Below are positions 3,432 through 39,378 of a DNA stretch of 64,000 bases, piece after piece. The stretch comes from Acidobacteriota bacterium (lineage in GTDB: Bacteria > Acidobacteriota > Blastocatellia > HR10). Location: contig JAUQQC010000005.1 in the NCBI GenBank assembly GCA_030550025.1, positions 62,001-126,000 on the forward strand. Direction: 5' to 3'. The notes under the pieces are model-generated. The model was not told the DNA's origin. It saw nothing but the letters and a program-made list of their open reading frames with translations, and ran no database searches. A program made the translations under genes and the position numbers. The first letter of the stretch is position 1. Each line of letters starts with the position of its first letter.

Positions 3432-4150
3432 TTCCCCTCCTCCACGCGCACGAGCGCTTCAGCCAGAAGCAGATCCTCGGGCCACGTGATCTTCACGTTG
3501 CGGACCGATCCCTGGACAATGACGACTGGCCATCCGCAGCGCTCGACGAGCGCCGCATCATCGGTCGCCGTGACTCCTTCGCGCAAGGCCCGCTCATATG
3601 CCTCGAAGAGGATCGCGGCCCGAAACGCCTGCGGGGTCTGCGCCAGATAGAGGCGGCGGCGCTCCAACGTACCGATGACGCGTTCATCTTCGACTTCTTT
3701 GACCGTCTCCGCGATGGGGAGAGCCAAAAGCGCAGCGCCCACTGCGCGCGCCCGCTCGATGACGCACGCGATCTGCTCGGGCGTGACGAAGGGGCGAACG
3801 CCATCGTGAACGAGGAGAATGTCCGCGGCCTCTGGCGAGATCGTCTGCAGAGCGCGCGCGACCGAATGCAAGCGTTCTGGCCCGCCCGCGATCACGGCCG
3901 CGAGCTTCGTCACCGGCACGGCCGCGAACATTGCCTCGGCGCGCGCCCGCAGGTCCTCCGGCACGACGACCACCAGGCGATGCACCTCCGAACACGCTTC
4001 AAACGGACGCAACGTGCGGAGGATGATCGGCTCTCCCGCCAGCGAGAGGAACGCCTTCGGGACATCCGCGCCGATTCTCTTCCCTCGTCCGGCCGCGACA
4101 ATAATGGCGACGTTCGTCTCGCTCACCCCTGTCCAGGCCTTCCCCGCCAA
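3428..4150 (-). CDS. ispD: 2-C-methyl-D-erythritol 4-phosphate cytidylyltransferase
   Basis: VAIIVAAGRGKRIGADVPKAFLSLAGEPIILRTL...VHDGVRPFV. Overlaps ispF by 4 bp. Confidence 0.95.
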   Translation of the reverse strand: MAGKAWTGVSETNVAIIVAAGRGKRIGADVPKAFLSLAGEPIILRTLRPFEACSEVHRLVVVVPEDLRARAEAMFAAVPVTKLAAVIAGGPERLHSVARALQTISPEAADILLVHDGVRPFVTPEQIACVIERARAVGAALLALPIAETVKEVEDERVIGTLERRRLYLAQTPQAFRAAILFEAYERALREGVTATDDAALVERCGWPVVIVQGSVRNVKITWPEDLLLAEALVRVEEGK

Positions 4151-31592: not shown

Positions 31593-31629
31593 GAACACCC
31601 GGCGATGGATTGATCTCGCCGGGTGTTTC
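31593..31629 (+). terminator. Hairpin terminator GAACACCCGGCGA...TCGCCGGGTGTTTC
   Basis: Perfect 11-bp core stem (31595-31605 / 31616-31626) ending in TTT, 24 nt after the stop. Confidence 0.6.
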
Positions 31630-31729
31630 CATCTATGGGTGGCCCAATGTATCCGACTATAAGGGGGCGAATCTTCCGTTATTCGCGTTCGCCTTGCCCG
31701 CGCGTGAAAGACCGATTAAGTTTCCCGTT

Positions 31730-33775
31730 GTGTGGAGTCGAAGGACAAAATGCGCGTGGCCGCCTCGGTCCATCGGGATTCTCTTCATCTCCTTGATGAG
31801 CCTCACCGCATCTGCGGTGGGCGCAAAGCAAGGAGCCCATCATAAGGGTCTCGAAGTCCGAATTCATGCTATCCGCCCGAGCATCCTCGCTCCCGGCGAG
31901 CGCGCGATCGCATGGGTGTGGTTGGAAAACGCTCGAGATGAAGGGCTCTGGATCGAATCCATCCAGCTCTTTCTTCTGACCCCCGACGGAAGCGCGGATC
32001 TCGAATCCGCATCGCTGGAAGCAGGCGCTTCTTCAGATCTCGCTGCCGCGATCCTGGCGCCTCGTGAGCATCGCCTTCTGACGATCCCTTTTCGGGCGCC
32101 AATCCATAACGGCCGTCACCACCTCGTCGCTGTCGTCCGCGCGCATTCCGCCACCACTTCCCACACGTCCCTCTCAGCCGCACGAGCGATCACCGTCGCT
32201 CGACTTCGCGTGCACAACCTGAAGGTCTTCCCTACGGTGCTTCCCGACTGCCAGGGCGAGACTTCCGTCCGTTTCGAGCTGGAGCTTCTCAATGTGACCT
32301 TCGATCCGGTGGATGACGTGCAGCTTCTGTACGAGCTTCGGGAGCACGGGAGCGACGCGCTTTTAGCGAGCGGGCGTCTGCGGCTCGGTCGGATCGCTGC
32401 CGGGGAACGGCGGCGCGTCCGCTCCTTAGAACCGGTGGAGATTCCGACGTCGGCCCTTATCGCCGGACGACGCTTAGCCCTCGATTTTCAACTTCAGCCG
32501 GAAGCGCTCACCGAACGCCGCCTCTTGGCGATCGGCACCGGAGCAGACGTGAAGGTAGAAGACATCATCATCGTCCCACCGGATCGAGCGCCGGGCGATC
32601 CGGTCCTGCCCGGAGAGATGGCCGCGCTCGGCTTCACGCTGGTCAACCGAGGGAATCAACAGGGGACGAGCCCGGCGCTCGTGGTGCGCGTGAGCGCCGA
32701 GGCCGACGGAAAGCCGCTCCATGTGGAACCCGATACGCTCTCGCTGCCGAACGTCGTGCTGGCCCCCTGTGGGGGAAGCCTGCGCATCGGCGCCGCTCAA
32801 GGGACGGAGGGGGCGAGCGCAAATCTTTCGCTCCCTCTGCTCTTCATCCCTCAGGATGCCGAAGAAGGCGACGCTCTCGTGCGCTTGGTCGTCGGACGCG
32901 TCGCGGAAGAGACGACGACGGATACGGACGAAGAACCCACGCGCGCGAGCGTTCACATTGATCTTCCGAATCTGCGCGTGCTCGCTCTCTCCATTCCTCA
33001 AGAGGTGTTGCTCGGACAAAGCGCGAGCGTGCGCTTTCGCGTCGCGAACGTGAAGGATCATCCCCAGGATCGCGCCCCCGTCCCAGCCGGCGTGCGCGTG
33101 CGTGCCGAACTCTGGCAAAGGGGGCAACGGCTCGCGCAAGAGGAATTTCGCACGCGGCGCTCGCTCGGTGCCGGGCAATCCGAGCTCCCCCCGGTGGAGT
33201 TCGCACTCCGCGTTCCCGCTCAAGCGGAGAAAGGATTGGCGCTCGTGCGCCTGGAAGTCGACCCCTCGACCCCCGAACGCCCGCGCGGAGACGTACGGGA
33301 ATCGAACGAAGCGGACAATATCGTCGAGGTCCCAATCCGGTTGACCACGCCCCTTCCCGATCTGGTCGTTGAAAGCGCGCGCGTCCTCGCTCCAGGCACT
33401 CCCCCAACGCTGACGATCGGCGCGCCGACGGCGCTCTTCTTTTTCATCGCGAATCGCGGAGAAGGCGCGGCCGATCCGGCGACGCATGAGATCAGCCTCG
33501 CTTTCACGATCACCATCGGCCCATTCCCCATCCAATTGCGCGCCCCGCTCCGAACGGTGGAGACGCCGCGCCTGGGGCGCAATCGCTTCGCTCCCTTTTT
33601 CACGACGATTCAAATCCCCCCGGTCATTCAACTGCCTGGCCTCCTTTTCCCGATCCCAGTTCCCACCGGCCCAGCCGAAATCCTTATCGTCGCCGATTCC
33701 AAGAAAGCCATCGAAGAGACGGACGAAGATAACAATACGACGCGATTGCCGGTGATCTTGGTCTCCCCACCATAG
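31730..33775 (+). CDS. Secreted protein with tandem CARDB-like Ig domains
   Basis: Hydrophobic leader; repeated blocks such as LPNLRVLALSIPQEVLLGQSASVRFRVANV and DLVVESARVLAPG...FFIANRGEG...ETDEDNNTTRLPV. Start uncertain (GTG 31730 or ATG 31796). Confidence 0.65.
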   Translation: MWSRRTKCAWPPRSIGILFISLMSLTASAVGAKQGAHHKGLEVRIHAIRPSILAPGERAIAWVWLENARDEGLWIESIQLFLLTPDGSADLESASLEAGASSDLAAAILAPREHRLLTIPFRAPIHNGRHHLVAVVRAHSATTSHTSLSAARAITVARLRVHNLKVFPTVLPDCQGETSVRFELELLNVTFDPVDDVQLLYELREHGSDALLASGRLRLGRIAAGERRRVRSLEPVEIPTSALIAGRRLALDFQLQPEALTERRLLAIGTGADVKVEDIIIVPPDRAPGDPVLPGEMAALGFTLVNRGNQQGTSPALVVRVSAEADGKPLHVEPDTLSLPNVVLAPCGGSLRIGAAQGTEGASANLSLPLLFIPQDAEEGDALVRLVVGRVAEETTTDTDEEPTRASVHIDLPNLRVLALSIPQEVLLGQSASVRFRVANVKDHPQDRAPVPAGVRVRAELWQRGQRLAQEEFRTRRSLGAGQSELPPVEFALRVPAQAEKGLALVRLEVDPSTPERPRGDVRESNEADNIVEVPIRLTTPLPDLVVESARVLAPGTPPTLTIGAPTALFFFIANRGEGAADPATHEISLAFTITIGPFPIQLRAPLRTVETPRLGRNRFAPFFTTIQIPPVIQLPGLLFPIPVPTGPAEILIVADSKKAIEETDEDNNTTRLPVILVSPP

Positions 33776-33829: not shown

Positions 33830-35128
33830 TCAGCGAAAGCGCTTCTCCCAGAGACGGCAGAAGAAGCCAGCCCTCAAAAAGCGGAGGAGTGAGCCTACGG
33901 CCGGAGCCGAGATCAAAAAGGCGAATGGGCGAGCGGGCAGCATATATCGGGCTTCGACATGCAGCGGGAGGAAGACGAGCGAATAGTAGAGGACGATCAC
34001 GGCGCTTCCGGCGAGAACCACGTGACTCCGAAAGCGAACGAAGAAAAATCCCATCACCAGGAGCACGAATCCGAGGCCGAAGTAAAGGCCTAGTGCCGCC
34101 TTCGCCCAACGGGGCGTGTGAACGCCCAGGTGAATCCACCGCCTGGGGATCTTCGCGAAGCTCAGGAGGAGATAACGGATCGGGTGCTGACGGATGCGCT
34201 CAAGGGCGATCTGACGCAAACGCCTATTCTCGCGCCACCAATACGCTTGCTGAATTCCGAGCGCATGAAGCTCCCGCCTCAGGTCGCGCTCCCACTCGGG
34301 AGTGGGAACCCAAGGTTCACGCGTGGCGACCCATAACCCATACCCCAATTCCATCGAGACGAACATCGGCTTCCCAAAGGCGAGATAGTTCCGGACTACC
34401 CATGCCCCCACAGGAAGACACAGGCTGAGCGTCAGTGGGAGCACATAACAGAGGCGGAAAGCTGGGAACCGAAATGCCCTCCCCGCAATCCCCAAAAGCA
34501 CCGGCAGCAAAAGCGCATAGGGGCGAACGAGCACCGCCAGCCCGAGGATGAGCCCAGCCAGAAGCGCCTTCCGAATCGTCGGCCGATCGGTGAACCAAAT
34601 CGTCGCGAAGAGCGAGAGCAAAAAGACGTGTAACATGTCCGACAACACCCGCGACGCCCAATACGCCCACATGGGATAGGTCCCTGCTAGGACGAGCACG
34701 ACTCCCAATTCTTTCCCATAACCATAAGCCCTCCGAGCCAGCAGGAAGATCAGAACGAGGGTGGCCAACATCAACGCGCCGTTGGCGAGCACAGCGGCAA
34801 GAGGCCTGCGCCCGGCAAGTCCATAAATTCCCGCGAGGAAGAAGCTGTATCCGGGAGGAAAGGTCGCCGCGGGGACAAAACGCGCGGCAGCCGTTTCCGG
34901 ATTCCTCGCTCGATAAAGGCGTGTCAGATCGGGATCCTCCCATTCGTCACGCGCATAGGAGAAGCCATGCCCACGTACAAGATTCCAAGCCGGTTGCTCA
35001 TAGAAACCCGCATCGGAATAAAGCCAGTCCCCTCGATGTACGTACACACTGATGGCGAAAACGATCCCCTGAAACGCAAGCCCGGCCCAGAGGATCCTTC
35101 TGCAAATCGACTGCTCGTCTCGGCGCAA
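33830..35128 (-). CDS. GT39/ArnT-like polytopic glycosyltransferase
   Basis: YSDAGFYEQPAWNLVRGHGFS...TFPPGYSFFLAGIYGLAGRRPLAAVLANG. TTG start inferred. Confidence 0.75.
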   Translation of the reverse strand: MRRDEQSICRRILWAGLAFQGIVFAISVYVHRGDWLYSDAGFYEQPAWNLVRGHGFSYARDEWEDPDLTRLYRARNPETAAARFVPAATFPPGYSFFLAGIYGLAGRRPLAAVLANGALMLATLVLIFLLARRAYGYGKELGVVLVLAGTYPMWAYWASRVLSDMLHVFLLSLFATIWFTDRPTIRKALLAGLILGLAVLVRPYALLLPVLLGIAGRAFRFPAFRLCYVLPLTLSLCLPVGAWVVRNYLAFGKPMFVSMELGYGLWVATREPWVPTPEWERDLRRELHALGIQQAYWWRENRRLRQIALERIRQHPIRYLLLSFAKIPRRWIHLGVHTPRWAKAALGLYFGLGFVLLVMGFFFVRFRSHVVLAGSAVIVLYYSLVFLPLHVEARYMLPARPFAFLISAPAVGSLLRFLRAGFFCRLWEKRFR

Positions 35129-35271
35129 CGCCTCATCCCTCCAGGGACTTCACTCACCCATGAGCGATCCTCCTCTCACCATCCGTAACGAAAACCCATA
35201 AGCGATCCACCGTAGAAAGAAGCGAACGGGCGCATAGGGGACACGCTTTGAAGCAAGCCGACCGAGGGGGC

Positions 35272-36414
35272 TCACGCCCAACGATCGAACTCTTTAATGG
35301 CGGCTACCACATAGGCCTGGTCCTCCTCCGTCAAGGAGTTGTAGAACGGTAGGCGAAGCAAGCGATCGCTGACCTCTTCCGTGACGGGACATTGACCGGG
35401 TCGGCCGCCAAATCGCCGACCCATGGCCGACAGATGCAGCGGGTGATAGTGAAAGACGCTCAAGATGCCACGCGCCTTCAGATGGGCGATCAACGCTTGC
35501 CGCTCCGCAAGCGAGGGCATGAGCAGGTAGAACATGTGATACGATTGCTGACAATGCGGAGGAACGTGAGGAAGACGAACGCCGTGCGCCTCGGCCCAAT
35601 CCTTCAAGTGCTCCGCATAGTATTCCCAGATGCGCTGGCGCTTTCGTTGAATCTCCTCGCGGGCTTCGAGTTGCGCGTAGAGAAAGGCGGCCAGGAGATC
35701 CGACAAAACATAACTCGATCCGATGTCAATCCACGTGTATTTGTCCACCTCGCCCCGGAAAAATCGGGTTCGGTCCGTCCCCTTCTCGCGGATGATCTCG
35801 GCCCGCTCGATATACTGCGGGTCGTTGATGATGAGAGCGCCACCTTCGCCACAGGTGATGTTCTTCGTCTCATGGAAGCTCAACGCCGCCAGAGAGCCGA
35901 ACGTGCCAAGCGGCTTCCCCTTGTATGCGCCGAACAGTCCGTGCGCGTTATCCTCGACGACGGCCACTCCATGCCGACGGGCGATCTCCAAAATAGCGTC
36001 CATCTCACAGCCCACGCCCGCGTAGTGCACGACGACGATCACCTTGGTGCGCGGCGTGATGAGACGCTCCAGGCGAGTCTCGTCGAGATTGAGCGTGTCC
36101 GGGCGAATGTCGGCGAAAACGGGCCGAGCGCCCCGCAAGACAAACGCATTGGCCGTCGAGACGAACGTGAACGAGGGAACGATCACTTCATCTCCGGGTC
36201 CGACGTCCAGCAACAACGCCATCAACTCCAAAGCATGGGTGCCCGATGGAGTCAGGAGAACCCGCCGCGCTAGAAGGAGCTGTTCGAGAAGAGCTTGACA
36301 CCTCTCGGTGAATTGTCCGTTGCCGGAGATATGATTCGATCGAACGGCCTCCGCCATATAGCTCATCTCGCTTCCGGCCAGTGAGGGTTTGTTGAAGGGA
36401 ACTCGATAAGACAT
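35272..36414 (-). CDS. wecE: dTDP-4-amino-4,6-dideoxygalactose transaminase (WecE/RffA-like)
   Basis: VPFNKPSLAGSEMSYMAEAVRSNHISGNGQFT...PSGTHALELMALLLDVGPGDEVIVPSFTFVSTANAFVLRGA...SFHETKNITCGEGGAL. Confidence 0.9.
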   Translation of the reverse strand: MSYRVPFNKPSLAGSEMSYMAEAVRSNHISGNGQFTERCQALLEQLLLARRVLLTPSGTHALELMALLLDVGPGDEVIVPSFTFVSTANAFVLRGARPVFADIRPDTLNLDETRLERLITPRTKVIVVVHYAGVGCEMDAILEIARRHGVAVVEDNAHGLFGAYKGKPLGTFGSLAALSFHETKNITCGEGGALIINDPQYIERAEIIREKGTDRTRFFRGEVDKYTWIDIGSSYVLSDLLAAFLYAQLEAREEIQRKRQRIWEYYAEHLKDWAEAHGVRLPHVPPHCQQSYHMFYLLMPSLAERQALIAHLKARGILSVFHYHPLHLSAMGRRFGGRPGQCPVTEEVSDRLLRLPFYNSLTEEDQAYVVAAIKEFDRWA

Positions 36415-36421
36415 CGCGCCG

Positions 36422-37174
36422 TCACTCCCCACGTCTCTCCTGCAAAAACCACCGATGATACCAAAGCTGCACTTTTCGGGTCAGAAAACCACATCGTTGA
36501 TATACTCTCTGAGCGGCGACATTCCGTCCCTGAGTAACGACAGTCACTCGCCATGCCCCTTCCTGGACGAACCATCTTAAGGCATGGTGGATAAGCCTCT
36601 TGCCAAGACCCTGGCCTCTCCACTCAGGATGGACGCCGAACAACCCAATCTGTCCCTCGCCGGAGCTTTGACGATGGCAGGTGATATAACCGACCGGCTG
36701 GTTCCCCATTTCCAAAACGAATACGGCATCCGCATACCCTTGGCAGCTCCGCGCGATCCACAGTTCATAGAGAGCATCGCAGCGAGACCGAAGAAAATTC
36801 GGATCGGAATAAAAGCGTGTATCCCGGTGGCTGACTCGCGCTATCTCTTGCAGCACGGGGACGTCTTCCGGGCGGCACGAGCGCAAAACTCCTGAGAATG
36901 GCTCTATCGAAGGCGCTGATGAATCGTCAAGTTGCTTCTCAAGCGTAATGCGGATATCCACCAGGCGAAAACCGTAGTCCTCTGCCAATCGGATCGTCAC
37001 CGGGTCATCCACCTCAGCGAGAAAATAGAGGCAGTCGATTGCCTGCTCGCGACACCATGACAGTATGGACAAAACCGTTTCCGGACAGAGCCGACTCACC
37101 CTGGCGCGGGCAATACGATGTCCAAAGAAGGCGGAATCCCAGTCAAGGTATTGGCAAAGAAGCTCGTGGTTCAT
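36422..37174 (-). CDS. wecD: GNAT acetyltransferase, WecD/RffC-like (dTDP-fucosamine acetyltransferase)
   Basis: YLDWDSAFFGHRIARARVSRL N-terminus plus GNAT core GLFGVHPEWRGQGLGKRLIHHAL...NVAAQRVYQRCGF, adjacent to wecE. Confidence 0.75.
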   Translation of the reverse strand: MNHELLCQYLDWDSAFFGHRIARARVSRLCPETVLSILSWCREQAIDCLYFLAEVDDPVTIRLAEDYGFRLVDIRITLEKQLDDSSAPSIEPFSGVLRSCRPEDVPVLQEIARVSHRDTRFYSDPNFLRSRCDALYELWIARSCQGYADAVFVLEMGNQPVGYITCHRQSSGEGQIGLFGVHPEWRGQGLGKRLIHHALRWFVQEGAWRVTVVTQGRNVAAQRVYQRCGFLTRKVQLWYHRWFLQERRGE

Positions 37175-37176
37175 TG

Positions 37177-38124
37177 TCAGCTCGAGAACGTCGTTGAGCG
37201 AATGGTGTACGTCGGTCGCTCCATCATGCGGAAGTACATTCGGGCGAGATATTCGCCGATGATGCCCAGCGCGAGCAATTGCGCTCCGGAGAAGATCGCG
37301 ATCGTCGAGGCCAAAAAGGGAAAGCCCGGAACGCTGCCCCCCTGGATCAAATAACGCCCGACCACGTAAACCAGCACCCCGAGGCCAAAAAGGGAAAAAG
37401 CGAAGCCAATGACGCTGGCCAGTTGCAGCGGGAGGGTGCTGAAGCCCGTCATCATGTTGAGGGCGTGAGTGACGAGCTTCCCAAAAGTGTAGTGAGAGCT
37501 ACCGATCGGGCGCGGATCATGTCGAACGGCGACGGCAGCAAATCGAGTCGTCCCCCAGGTGAGCAACACATCAATCGAGACAAATGGGCCGTGATACCCA
37601 GCAAACGCTTGTCGAACCTGAGTACGAAAAGCGCGAAAGGCACTGACGTGGCGGGCCGTCTCGGCTCCCATCGCCCCCTGCAAGGCCAATTTCGTCAGGC
37701 GCGAAGCCAGATTCCGCCAAAACCCATGGGGGGGCTTGAGGGGAGTCCCGTAGACCACGTCATACCCTTCGGCCAGCTTCGCCAGAAGCTTGGGGATCTC
37801 CTCCGGAGGATGCTGCAAGTCATCGTCCATCGTCACAATGATCTCATAGCGCGCGGCTCGGATTCCACAGAGCAGGGCGTTGTGCTGCCCATAATTTCGC
37901 ATCAAGCGAATTCCCCGAACCCCTTCACGCTGCGCGGCGAGCTCGCGAATCACTTCCCAGCTCCGGTCGCTGCTTCCGTCATCCACTAAGATCACTTCCG
38001 CCGCCGACGCACAGGCCGCCAAAACAGCCTCAAGTCGCTGCACGAGCGAAGAGAGAATCGGCTCGCTGTTGAAGACAGGTACAACGACGGAGACCGTCGG
38101 ACGAACATCTCCCATAAGGTTCAC
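37177..38124 (-). CDS. GT2 polyprenyl-phosphate glycosyltransferase (ArnC/GtrB-like)
   Basis: VSVVVPVFNSEPIL...EVILVDDGSSDRSWEVI...MRNYGQHNALLCGIRAA...TMDDDLQHPPEEIPKLL and two C-terminal TM helices. Confidence 0.9.
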   Translation of the reverse strand: MNLMGDVRPTVSVVVPVFNSEPILSSLVQRLEAVLAACASAAEVILVDDGSSDRSWEVIRELAAQREGVRGIRLMRNYGQHNALLCGIRAARYEIIVTMDDDLQHPPEEIPKLLAKLAEGYDVVYGTPLKPPHGFWRNLASRLTKLALQGAMGAETARHVSAFRAFRTQVRQAFAGYHGPFVSIDVLLTWGTTRFAAVAVRHDPRPIGSSHYTFGKLVTHALNMMTGFSTLPLQLASVIGFAFSLFGLGVLVYVVGRYLIQGGSVPGFPFLASTIAIFSGAQLLALGIIGEYLARMYFRMMERPTYTIRSTTFSS

Positions 38125-38172
38125 GCCGACATTTTAGAAACCCGCCTCTCTGCCGTCAACCATCACCTCCCT

Positions 38173-39378
38173 TTAGCCAAACCACCGCAGGAGGTGATAC
38201 GAGAAGGCGGACGCAAGACTCCAGCCGATAGCCGGAAGAAGGAGCAGAAGTTGGCCGCGCGTACTCGATGTAGCCAGCACGGCGCATCGGCTCACGAGCA
38301 AGTAGTACATCGGGAGGCTGTAGATCAAATACCGCGGGAGGAAGAGCGGGAAAAGCACGAGCGAGACAAGAGTGAGCCCTACAATCGGGACCGCGAGCGT
38401 GAATAGCAGATACCCTGAGGGCATCACAAGCAGATCGCTGATCGCCATGGTAGAGCGCCGGACACGCAAAGCGGCCGCTAGCTCTCGCCGCCATTTCCAT
38501 CCGAGAGCGAGGAACGGAAGGCTCCAGGGTAAGAATCCATAGCGCATTGTATCGGGAAAGGGGAGCATCCCGTGAAAGGCCCCGAAGAGATAGATGGCCC
38601 CGGAGAGCGACCGCGCGCCGAGATCCTGCAATGTTTCGAGGTTTTCCCACGCTTGAGGATAAAACCGATGAACGATCAAGAGGAGGACGAGCGAAAGGAT
38701 TCCAAAAGGTAAGACCCCTTTCGCCCATGTCCACCATGAAGCCGCCGCCCCCATCTTCCGCCTCGCATAGAGGAAGAAGTAGAGGCCCTGTCCGAAGATG
38801 AAGAACCACGCGAAATAATGGGTCAGGCTCAAAAGGGCCACGGCAAGGACGAAGTGCCACGTTCGCCCTCCGCTCCCGACGAAGGTGCGAAAGAAAGAGA
38901 GGGTTAAAATCAGACCTCCCGCTTCGAGCATCGAGTACATTCTCGCTTCCGTCGCATAGTAGAGATGAAAATTTGAGAGGGCGAGCAAAAGCGCCGCCCA
39001 CAATCCCTCTCGTCGCGAGAACAATTCAACACCGCAGCGGTATAAGAGATAAAGGGCCAAAAGCGCGAAGATCAAAGAATAGATGCGAAGAGAGGGCAGC
39101 GATACGCCCGTCACCCCGACCCATATTTTGAGGAGACCGAAGTAAAGAGGAGGATACAGGAGATCGGCGCGTCGGGCCATAGTCGTCAAAGGGTGACCGA
39201 CGGCTTCGAGCGTGACGCGTTCATCCGCGTCCGGCTCTCGCCCCATATAGCCGAGCGCGAAGACACCGATGGTGAACCCGATGAGCAAGAGGAAGAGGAG
39301 AAAGGCATCCCTTGAACGCTCACTCGCCCCCCTCCCCCTCGCAGGCGAAATTGTCCCCGCGAAGCACGCGCTCAGCAT
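38173..39378 (-). CDS. GT39/PMT-like polytopic glycosyltransferase
   Basis: GREPDADERVTLEAVGHPLTTMARRADLLYPPLYFGLLKIWVGVTGVSLPSLRIYSLIF; multiple TM helices. Confidence 0.75.
   Translation of the reverse strand: MLSACFAGTISPARGRGASERSRDAFLLFLLLIGFTIGVFALGYMGREPDADERVTLEAVGHPLTTMARRADLLYPPLYFGLLKIWVGVTGVSLPSLRIYSLIFALLALYLLYRCGVELFSRREGLWAALLLALSNFHLYYATEARMYSMLEAGGLILTLSFFRTFVGSGGRTWHFVLAVALLSLTHYFAWFFIFGQGLYFFLYARRKMGAAASWWTWAKGVLPFGILSLVLLLIVHRFYPQAWENLETLQDLGARSLSGAIYLFGAFHGMLPFPDTMRYGFLPWSLPFLALGWKWRRELAAALRVRRSTMAISDLLVMPSGYLLFTLAVPIVGLTLVSLVLFPLFLPRYLIYSLPMYYLLVSRCAVLATSSTRGQLLLLLPAIGWSLASAFSYHLLRWFG

Follow-up and report, generated by a model that had tools for sequence, protein, structure and literature searches.

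The window, a stretch of 64,000 nucleotides, belongs to a 3.17 Mb genome assembly (98.7% complete) of an HR08-type member of the Blastocatellia (Acidobacteriota), with Bacterium HR08 and an uncultured Blastocatellia bacterium as its closest named kin. Five minus-strand genes occupy positions 33830-39378. All five open reading frames are present in the order given by the first-pass annotation, and their families were assigned by profile searches. The features of the cassette are as follows:

38173-39378, minus strand: PMTb, a 401 aa GT-C membrane protein (PMT_2-like), putative periplasmic transferase
37177-38124, minus strand: GT2 (Glycos_transf_2), putative dTDP-sugar:undecaprenyl-phosphate transferase in a clade of its own
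36422-37174, minus strand: slot gene, a WecD-like GNAT N-acyltransferase (PF00583), exchanged relative to congeners
35272-36414 from an ATG, with an open frame from a GTG at 36432, minus strand: WecE (DegT/WecE), dTDP-4-amino-4,6-dideoxygalactose transaminase
33830-35128, minus strand: PMTa, a 432 aa GT-C membrane protein (PMT_2), putative transferase
36255-37213, no strand: region where blastn shows no DNA homology to the three congeners G002, G003 and HR08, covering the slot exchange

Following this order, the genes are separated by 48 bp (PMTb/GT2), 2 bp (GT2/GNAT) and 143 bp (WecE/PMTa), and the GNAT and WecE genes overlap by 11 bp when the GTG at 36432 is taken as the WecE start; the ATG at 36414 is the likelier start. 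Structured RNA was looked for in the 143-bp gap before PMTa, and none was found (z = +1.2). The cassette had been described as slightly AT-rich, and the effect is real if modest, at 57-58% GC between 35 and 39 kb versus about 61-63% around it. By gene, the AT-richness is centred on the GNAT (GC 54.7%, GC3 58.2%), and the GC3 of the other four genes (68-71%) is similar to that of neighbouring genes. A 721-aa protein with CARDB-like repeats recognized by eye is encoded at 31610-33775, convergent with the cassette, and is retained beside it in all four congeners.

The aminotransferase scores above both curated WecE models (TIGR02379, 524.6 bits against a cut-off of 434.85; NF008687, 573.5 bits against 375), bearing out its initial designation as WecE-like, and falls far under the cut-offs of the ArnB and PseC models. 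It matches the E. coli WecE structure 4piw at E=2e-131, and both proteins contain the motifs HETKN and FFRG-VDKYTW. Judged by sequence, its product is best read as dTDP-D-Fuc4N.

The neighbouring GT2 had been called ArnC/GtrB-like. Structure matches place it in the ArnC class, yet it forms its own clade. Its nearest solved structures are ArnC (E=1e-50) and Sll0501 (E=1e-38), it also resembles dolichol-P-mannose synthase structures, and its 191.6 bits on the ArnC model NF007986 do not reach the cut-off of 529. Members of the clade are 54-88% identical, compared with ~35% for paralogous GT2s of the same order. Its similarity to ArnC and Sll0501 makes the enzyme a putative polyprenyl-phosphate sugar synthase. 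The PgfS/PgfM system of protein glycosylation in Streptococcus mutans pairs the same broad GT2 class with GT-C-like membrane proteins; the cassette GT2 differs in scoring only 153 bits on the PgfS model, against a cut-off of 500. A search for plasmid-borne copies of the GT2 at E <= 1e-60 returned none.

Both flanking membrane proteins, annotated at first as GT39-type, are predicted to take a GT-C fold in AlphaFold models built from alignments of their relatives. PMTa passes the PMT_2 cut-off (26.5 bits against 26.1), and its model (pLDDT 80) matches OST, PglB and ArnT in Foldseek. PMTb lies slightly below the same cut-off (25.7 bits), and a PDB sequence search with it gave no useful match. Its model (pLDDT 79) retrieves ArnT (5ezm/5f15) first and then Pmt4, although its similarity to ArnT is low (TM-score about 0.5, 15% identity), with Pmt4, ALG12 and PglB close behind. 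Eight residues of PMTb (D51, E52, D71, P75, P76, R145, M146 and Y147) are invariant in an alignment with 23 relatives. PMTa has no counterpart beside WecE in HR08 (L055); between WecE and the next gene there (3827-3940), only a 44-bp match to the window PMTa (33830-35128) is left, and this remnant suggests a deletion.

The slot gene product matches PF00583 at 76.6 bits, and the WecD family is its best match, so that the earlier WecD-like label holds at the level of family; the curated WecD cut-offs are missed (NF008212, 108.9 versus 219; TIGR02382, 77 versus 195.1). When aligned with E. coli WecD (2fs5), Tyr225 of the slot GNAT falls on the C-terminal Tyr of WecD, which we take to be the catalytic residue. 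This Tyr is kept in the window GNAT, and Trp stands at the position in the GNATs of G002 and G003.

In order to survey the distribution of the cassette core, 297 acidobacterial genomes were searched with the GT2 alone (E <= 1e-60). Twelve genomes matched, including the window's own, all at 1e-109 or better. WecE is encoded alongside the GT2 in 10 of these 12, and an N-modifying enzyme lies beside the GT2 or WecE in every one; the remaining two genomes, G137 and G215, carry the GT2 and a GNAT with no adjacent WecE. By comparison, none of ten paralogous ArnC-class GT2s of the same order has a WecE or an N-modifier alongside, the one exception being an adjacent, distant DegT protein (112 bits). 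A search starting from WecE recovered the same GT2 clade together with WecE in Planctomycetota, Verrucomicrobiota, Chloroflexota, Myxococcota and Pseudomonadota, a set biased towards having WecE because these loci outside the Acidobacteriota were found through the WecE query. In the WecE tree, all module WecEs except that of Roseateles fall in one 24-row clade (SH-aLRT 99). The clade also includes WecEs without the module GT2, so the GT2-WecE link is not absolute. Most modules are flanked by large proteins predicted to span the membrane with several TM helices, and the Roseateles module has a GtrA gene placed between those for the GNAT and WecE. On these results, GT2, N-modifier and WecE make up a conserved module, present in six phyla or more, rather than a chance neighbourhood. 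At three further loci (L138, L139 and L140, from G033, G018 and G046), a WecD-like GNAT and an adjacent WecE are present, but the ArnC-class GT2 is replaced by a pair of proteins of about 425 and 308 aa that look glycosyltransferase-like by eye. G001, a genome of the same genus that is 87% complete, yielded no GT2 of the module clade; the cassette may be missing from it or may not have been assembled.

The gene that usually lies between GT2 and WecE varies in family. By Pfam, slot genes belong to GNAT, Formyl_trans, WbqC and ATP-grasp families, and the GNATs themselves to several classes. A formyltransferase occupies the slot together with a methyltransferase in an Opitutaceae locus (L065), and in G016 a formyltransferase is encoded beyond WecE, on the side away from the GT2. 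WbqC proteins fill the slot in L063, L066 and L158, the last with an extra GNAT, while HR08 carries an ATP-grasp/HAD protein and a SAM methyltransferase. Placed on the GT2 tree, the four slot classes require at least four changes. Most of these enzymes are of kinds that could modify an amine, as would be expected for a 4-amino sugar with a variable cap. This exchangeable slot and the wide range of the module are new relative to the first-pass annotation. In a Myxococcales locus (L094:7162-7971), the slot frame lies on the strand opposite GT2 and WecE; it is weakly similar to a slot GNAT (33 bits) and has no Pfam match.

The annotation had further raised acquisition of the cassette, which the comparison of congeners contradicts. 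The cassette is found at one site in four species of the genus, within flanking DNA that is 78-88% identical, and deviant GC3 is limited to the slot GNAT; recent acquisition of the cassette as a whole is therefore rejected. In blastn comparisons with G002, G003 and HR08, homology ends at 36255-36333 and restarts at 37210-37213 in all three, the low-side edge being approximate owing to the rapid evolution of the WecE N-terminus. Slot-gene GC3 is also low in these congeners (57-63%). The window GNAT shares only 32-36% identity with the slot GNATs of G002 and G003 and is more similar to GNATs from other families (about 52-53% for G040, 50% for G284). From these comparisons, the slot gene looks to have been exchanged in place among members of the genus without movement of the adjoining genes, with only the GNAT looking foreign. 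The same differences could reflect fast divergence of one inherited GNAT, since the window, G002 and G003 slots are all GNATs and WecE N-termini evolve fast in general. We regard this as very improbable: at this position HR08 encodes an entirely different set of enzymes, the window GNAT resembles GNATs of other families more than those of its congeners, and nearly coincident homology breaks accompany a GC3 drop confined to the slot. A chimeric WecE with an N-terminus imported along with the slot was also considered and is unsupported, as this region is less conserved across WecEs in general and its closest matches are still those of the congeners.

Elsewhere in the host genome, RmlB (dTDP-glucose 4,6-dehydratase) is encoded next to RmlD and scores above its cut-off (472 bits), while the best RmlA candidate reaches 256 bits, below the curated cut-off of 361. 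With RmlB and an RmlA-like enzyme present, the WecE substrate can probably be made. LpxC is also encoded, and lipid A synthesis is therefore expected. The statement that no ECA genes accompany the cassette stands for WecF, the sole ECA-specific gene searched for: PF07429 has no match anywhere in the genome, and the E. coli control was positive. A GtrA flippase was likewise searched for in the genome and none was found.

On balance we favour, with some reservation, a periplasmic glycan-decoration operon whose slot gene is swapped in place. The RmlA-like and RmlB enzymes would provide dTDP-4-keto-6-deoxyglucose, which WecE would aminate to dTDP-D-Fuc4N, and the slot enzyme would cap the 4-amine, with the WecD-like GNAT of the window probably adding an N-acetyl group. 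The GT2 may then transfer the capped sugar to undecaprenyl phosphate, a flippase would turn the lipid-linked sugar over, and one or both GT-C proteins could pass it to a periplasmic acceptor such as O-antigen, lipid A/core or protein. Recombination between the conserved flanks would exchange the slot gene and thereby alter the exposed N-substituent, akin to serotype conversion. Several observations count against this reading, namely the module-clade WecEs that lack the GT2, the two genomes with GT2 and GNAT but no adjacent WecE, the missing PMTa counterpart in HR08, the sub-threshold RmlA candidate and the absence of GtrA.

The ArnC/ArnT-like handling of an Und-P-linked amino sugar, as first proposed, is partly supported, in that the ArnC-class GT2 and the GT-C flanks agree with its logic. 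In the strict sense, N-capped (or later uncapped) Fuc4N would be placed on lipid A phosphate and confer cationic peptide resistance, which would also suit the ArnT-first fold match of PMTb and the presence of LpxC. We consider this quite unlikely, given how weak that match is and how closely other GT-C enzymes follow it, and given that the genes around the cassette include none recognized as an ArnD-like deformylase. Arn-type resistance relies on positive charge, which a retained acyl cap would remove, a mild argument against an Arn-like charge role. Alternatively, the genes could provide dTDP-Fuc4NAc for a standard O-antigen or exopolysaccharide whose synthesis is encoded elsewhere in the genome, the GT2 and GT-C proteins being unrelated neighbours; same-clade WecEs without the GT2 and the location of dTDP-sugar genes elsewhere in the genome speak for such a supply role. 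The tight GT2-slot-WecE linkage in several phyla, set against 0/10 for the paralogous GT2s, and the absence of WecF from the genome make it unlikely as well, and a dedicated decoration operon remains our preferred reading.

Among known systems, the Arn (Pmr) pathway for L-Ara4N (ArnB aminotransferase, ArnA formyltransferase, ArnC GT2, ArnT GT-C) shares with the cassette a DegT aminotransferase that yields a 4-amino sugar and an enzyme for its N-cap (both activities predicted for the cassette), an ArnC-class GT2 and a GT-C protein encoded alongside. In the cassette, WecE (dTDP-Fuc4N) replaces ArnB (UDP-Ara4N), an interchangeable cap enzyme replaces ArnA, and ArnD, ArnE and ArnF are missing; the proteins also fall far under the ArnB and ArnC cut-offs. 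The enterobacterial common antigen locus likewise combines WecE with a WecD-like acyltransferase for dTDP-Fuc4N(Ac); in the window, an Und-P-type GT2 and GT-C proteins adjoin these genes instead, in a genome without WecF. Three-component systems are marked by a GT-C-fold enzyme and a lipid-linked donor, with a flippase as the third part, and their modifications can alter serotype (PMC11127046). Systems of this Gtr type share with the cassette a polyprenyl-phosphate sugar synthase (putative in the cassette), a GT-C protein and modification genes that differ between close relatives (PMC11127046). The cassette, unlike these, encodes its own predicted aminosugar synthesis, the part seen to vary is the cap enzyme, and its genome lacks GtrA, though the Roseateles module has one.

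No description of the GT2/N-modifier/WecE module, or of an Arn-type or three-component pathway for its predicted sugar, was found in the open-access literature. We tentatively propose, as a possibility somewhat short of even, that the cassette represents a class of Und-P-aminosugar decoration system not described before. Two conserved genes would bracket an interchangeable enzyme that determines the N-substituent, a one-gene swap would re-cap the surface sugar, and WbqC (PF08889) would be one such 4-amino-sugar N-modifier. If so, a capped 4-amino-4,6-dideoxyhexose would join the Und-P-linked donors of periplasmic glycosylation, and surface glycans would diversify through a swap of N-modifying enzyme, not of glycosyltransferase.

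As a by-product, WbqC would gain a testable function. WbqC is found near 14 of 53 WecE-type loci versus none of 25 other DegT loci (Fisher p = 0.003; p = 0.007 after removing two loci used to build the profile), and its role as an N-modifier is our guess from gene position. A PDB sequence search with WbqC gave no useful match. WbqC-family proteins lie near WecE-type aminotransferases in L059, L071, L078, L079, L086, L087, L089, L091, L093 and L097. In two Burkholderia loci (L090 and L100), WbqC near a WecE-type aminotransferase is contained within open frames of 681-735 aa, whose length suggests a fusion.
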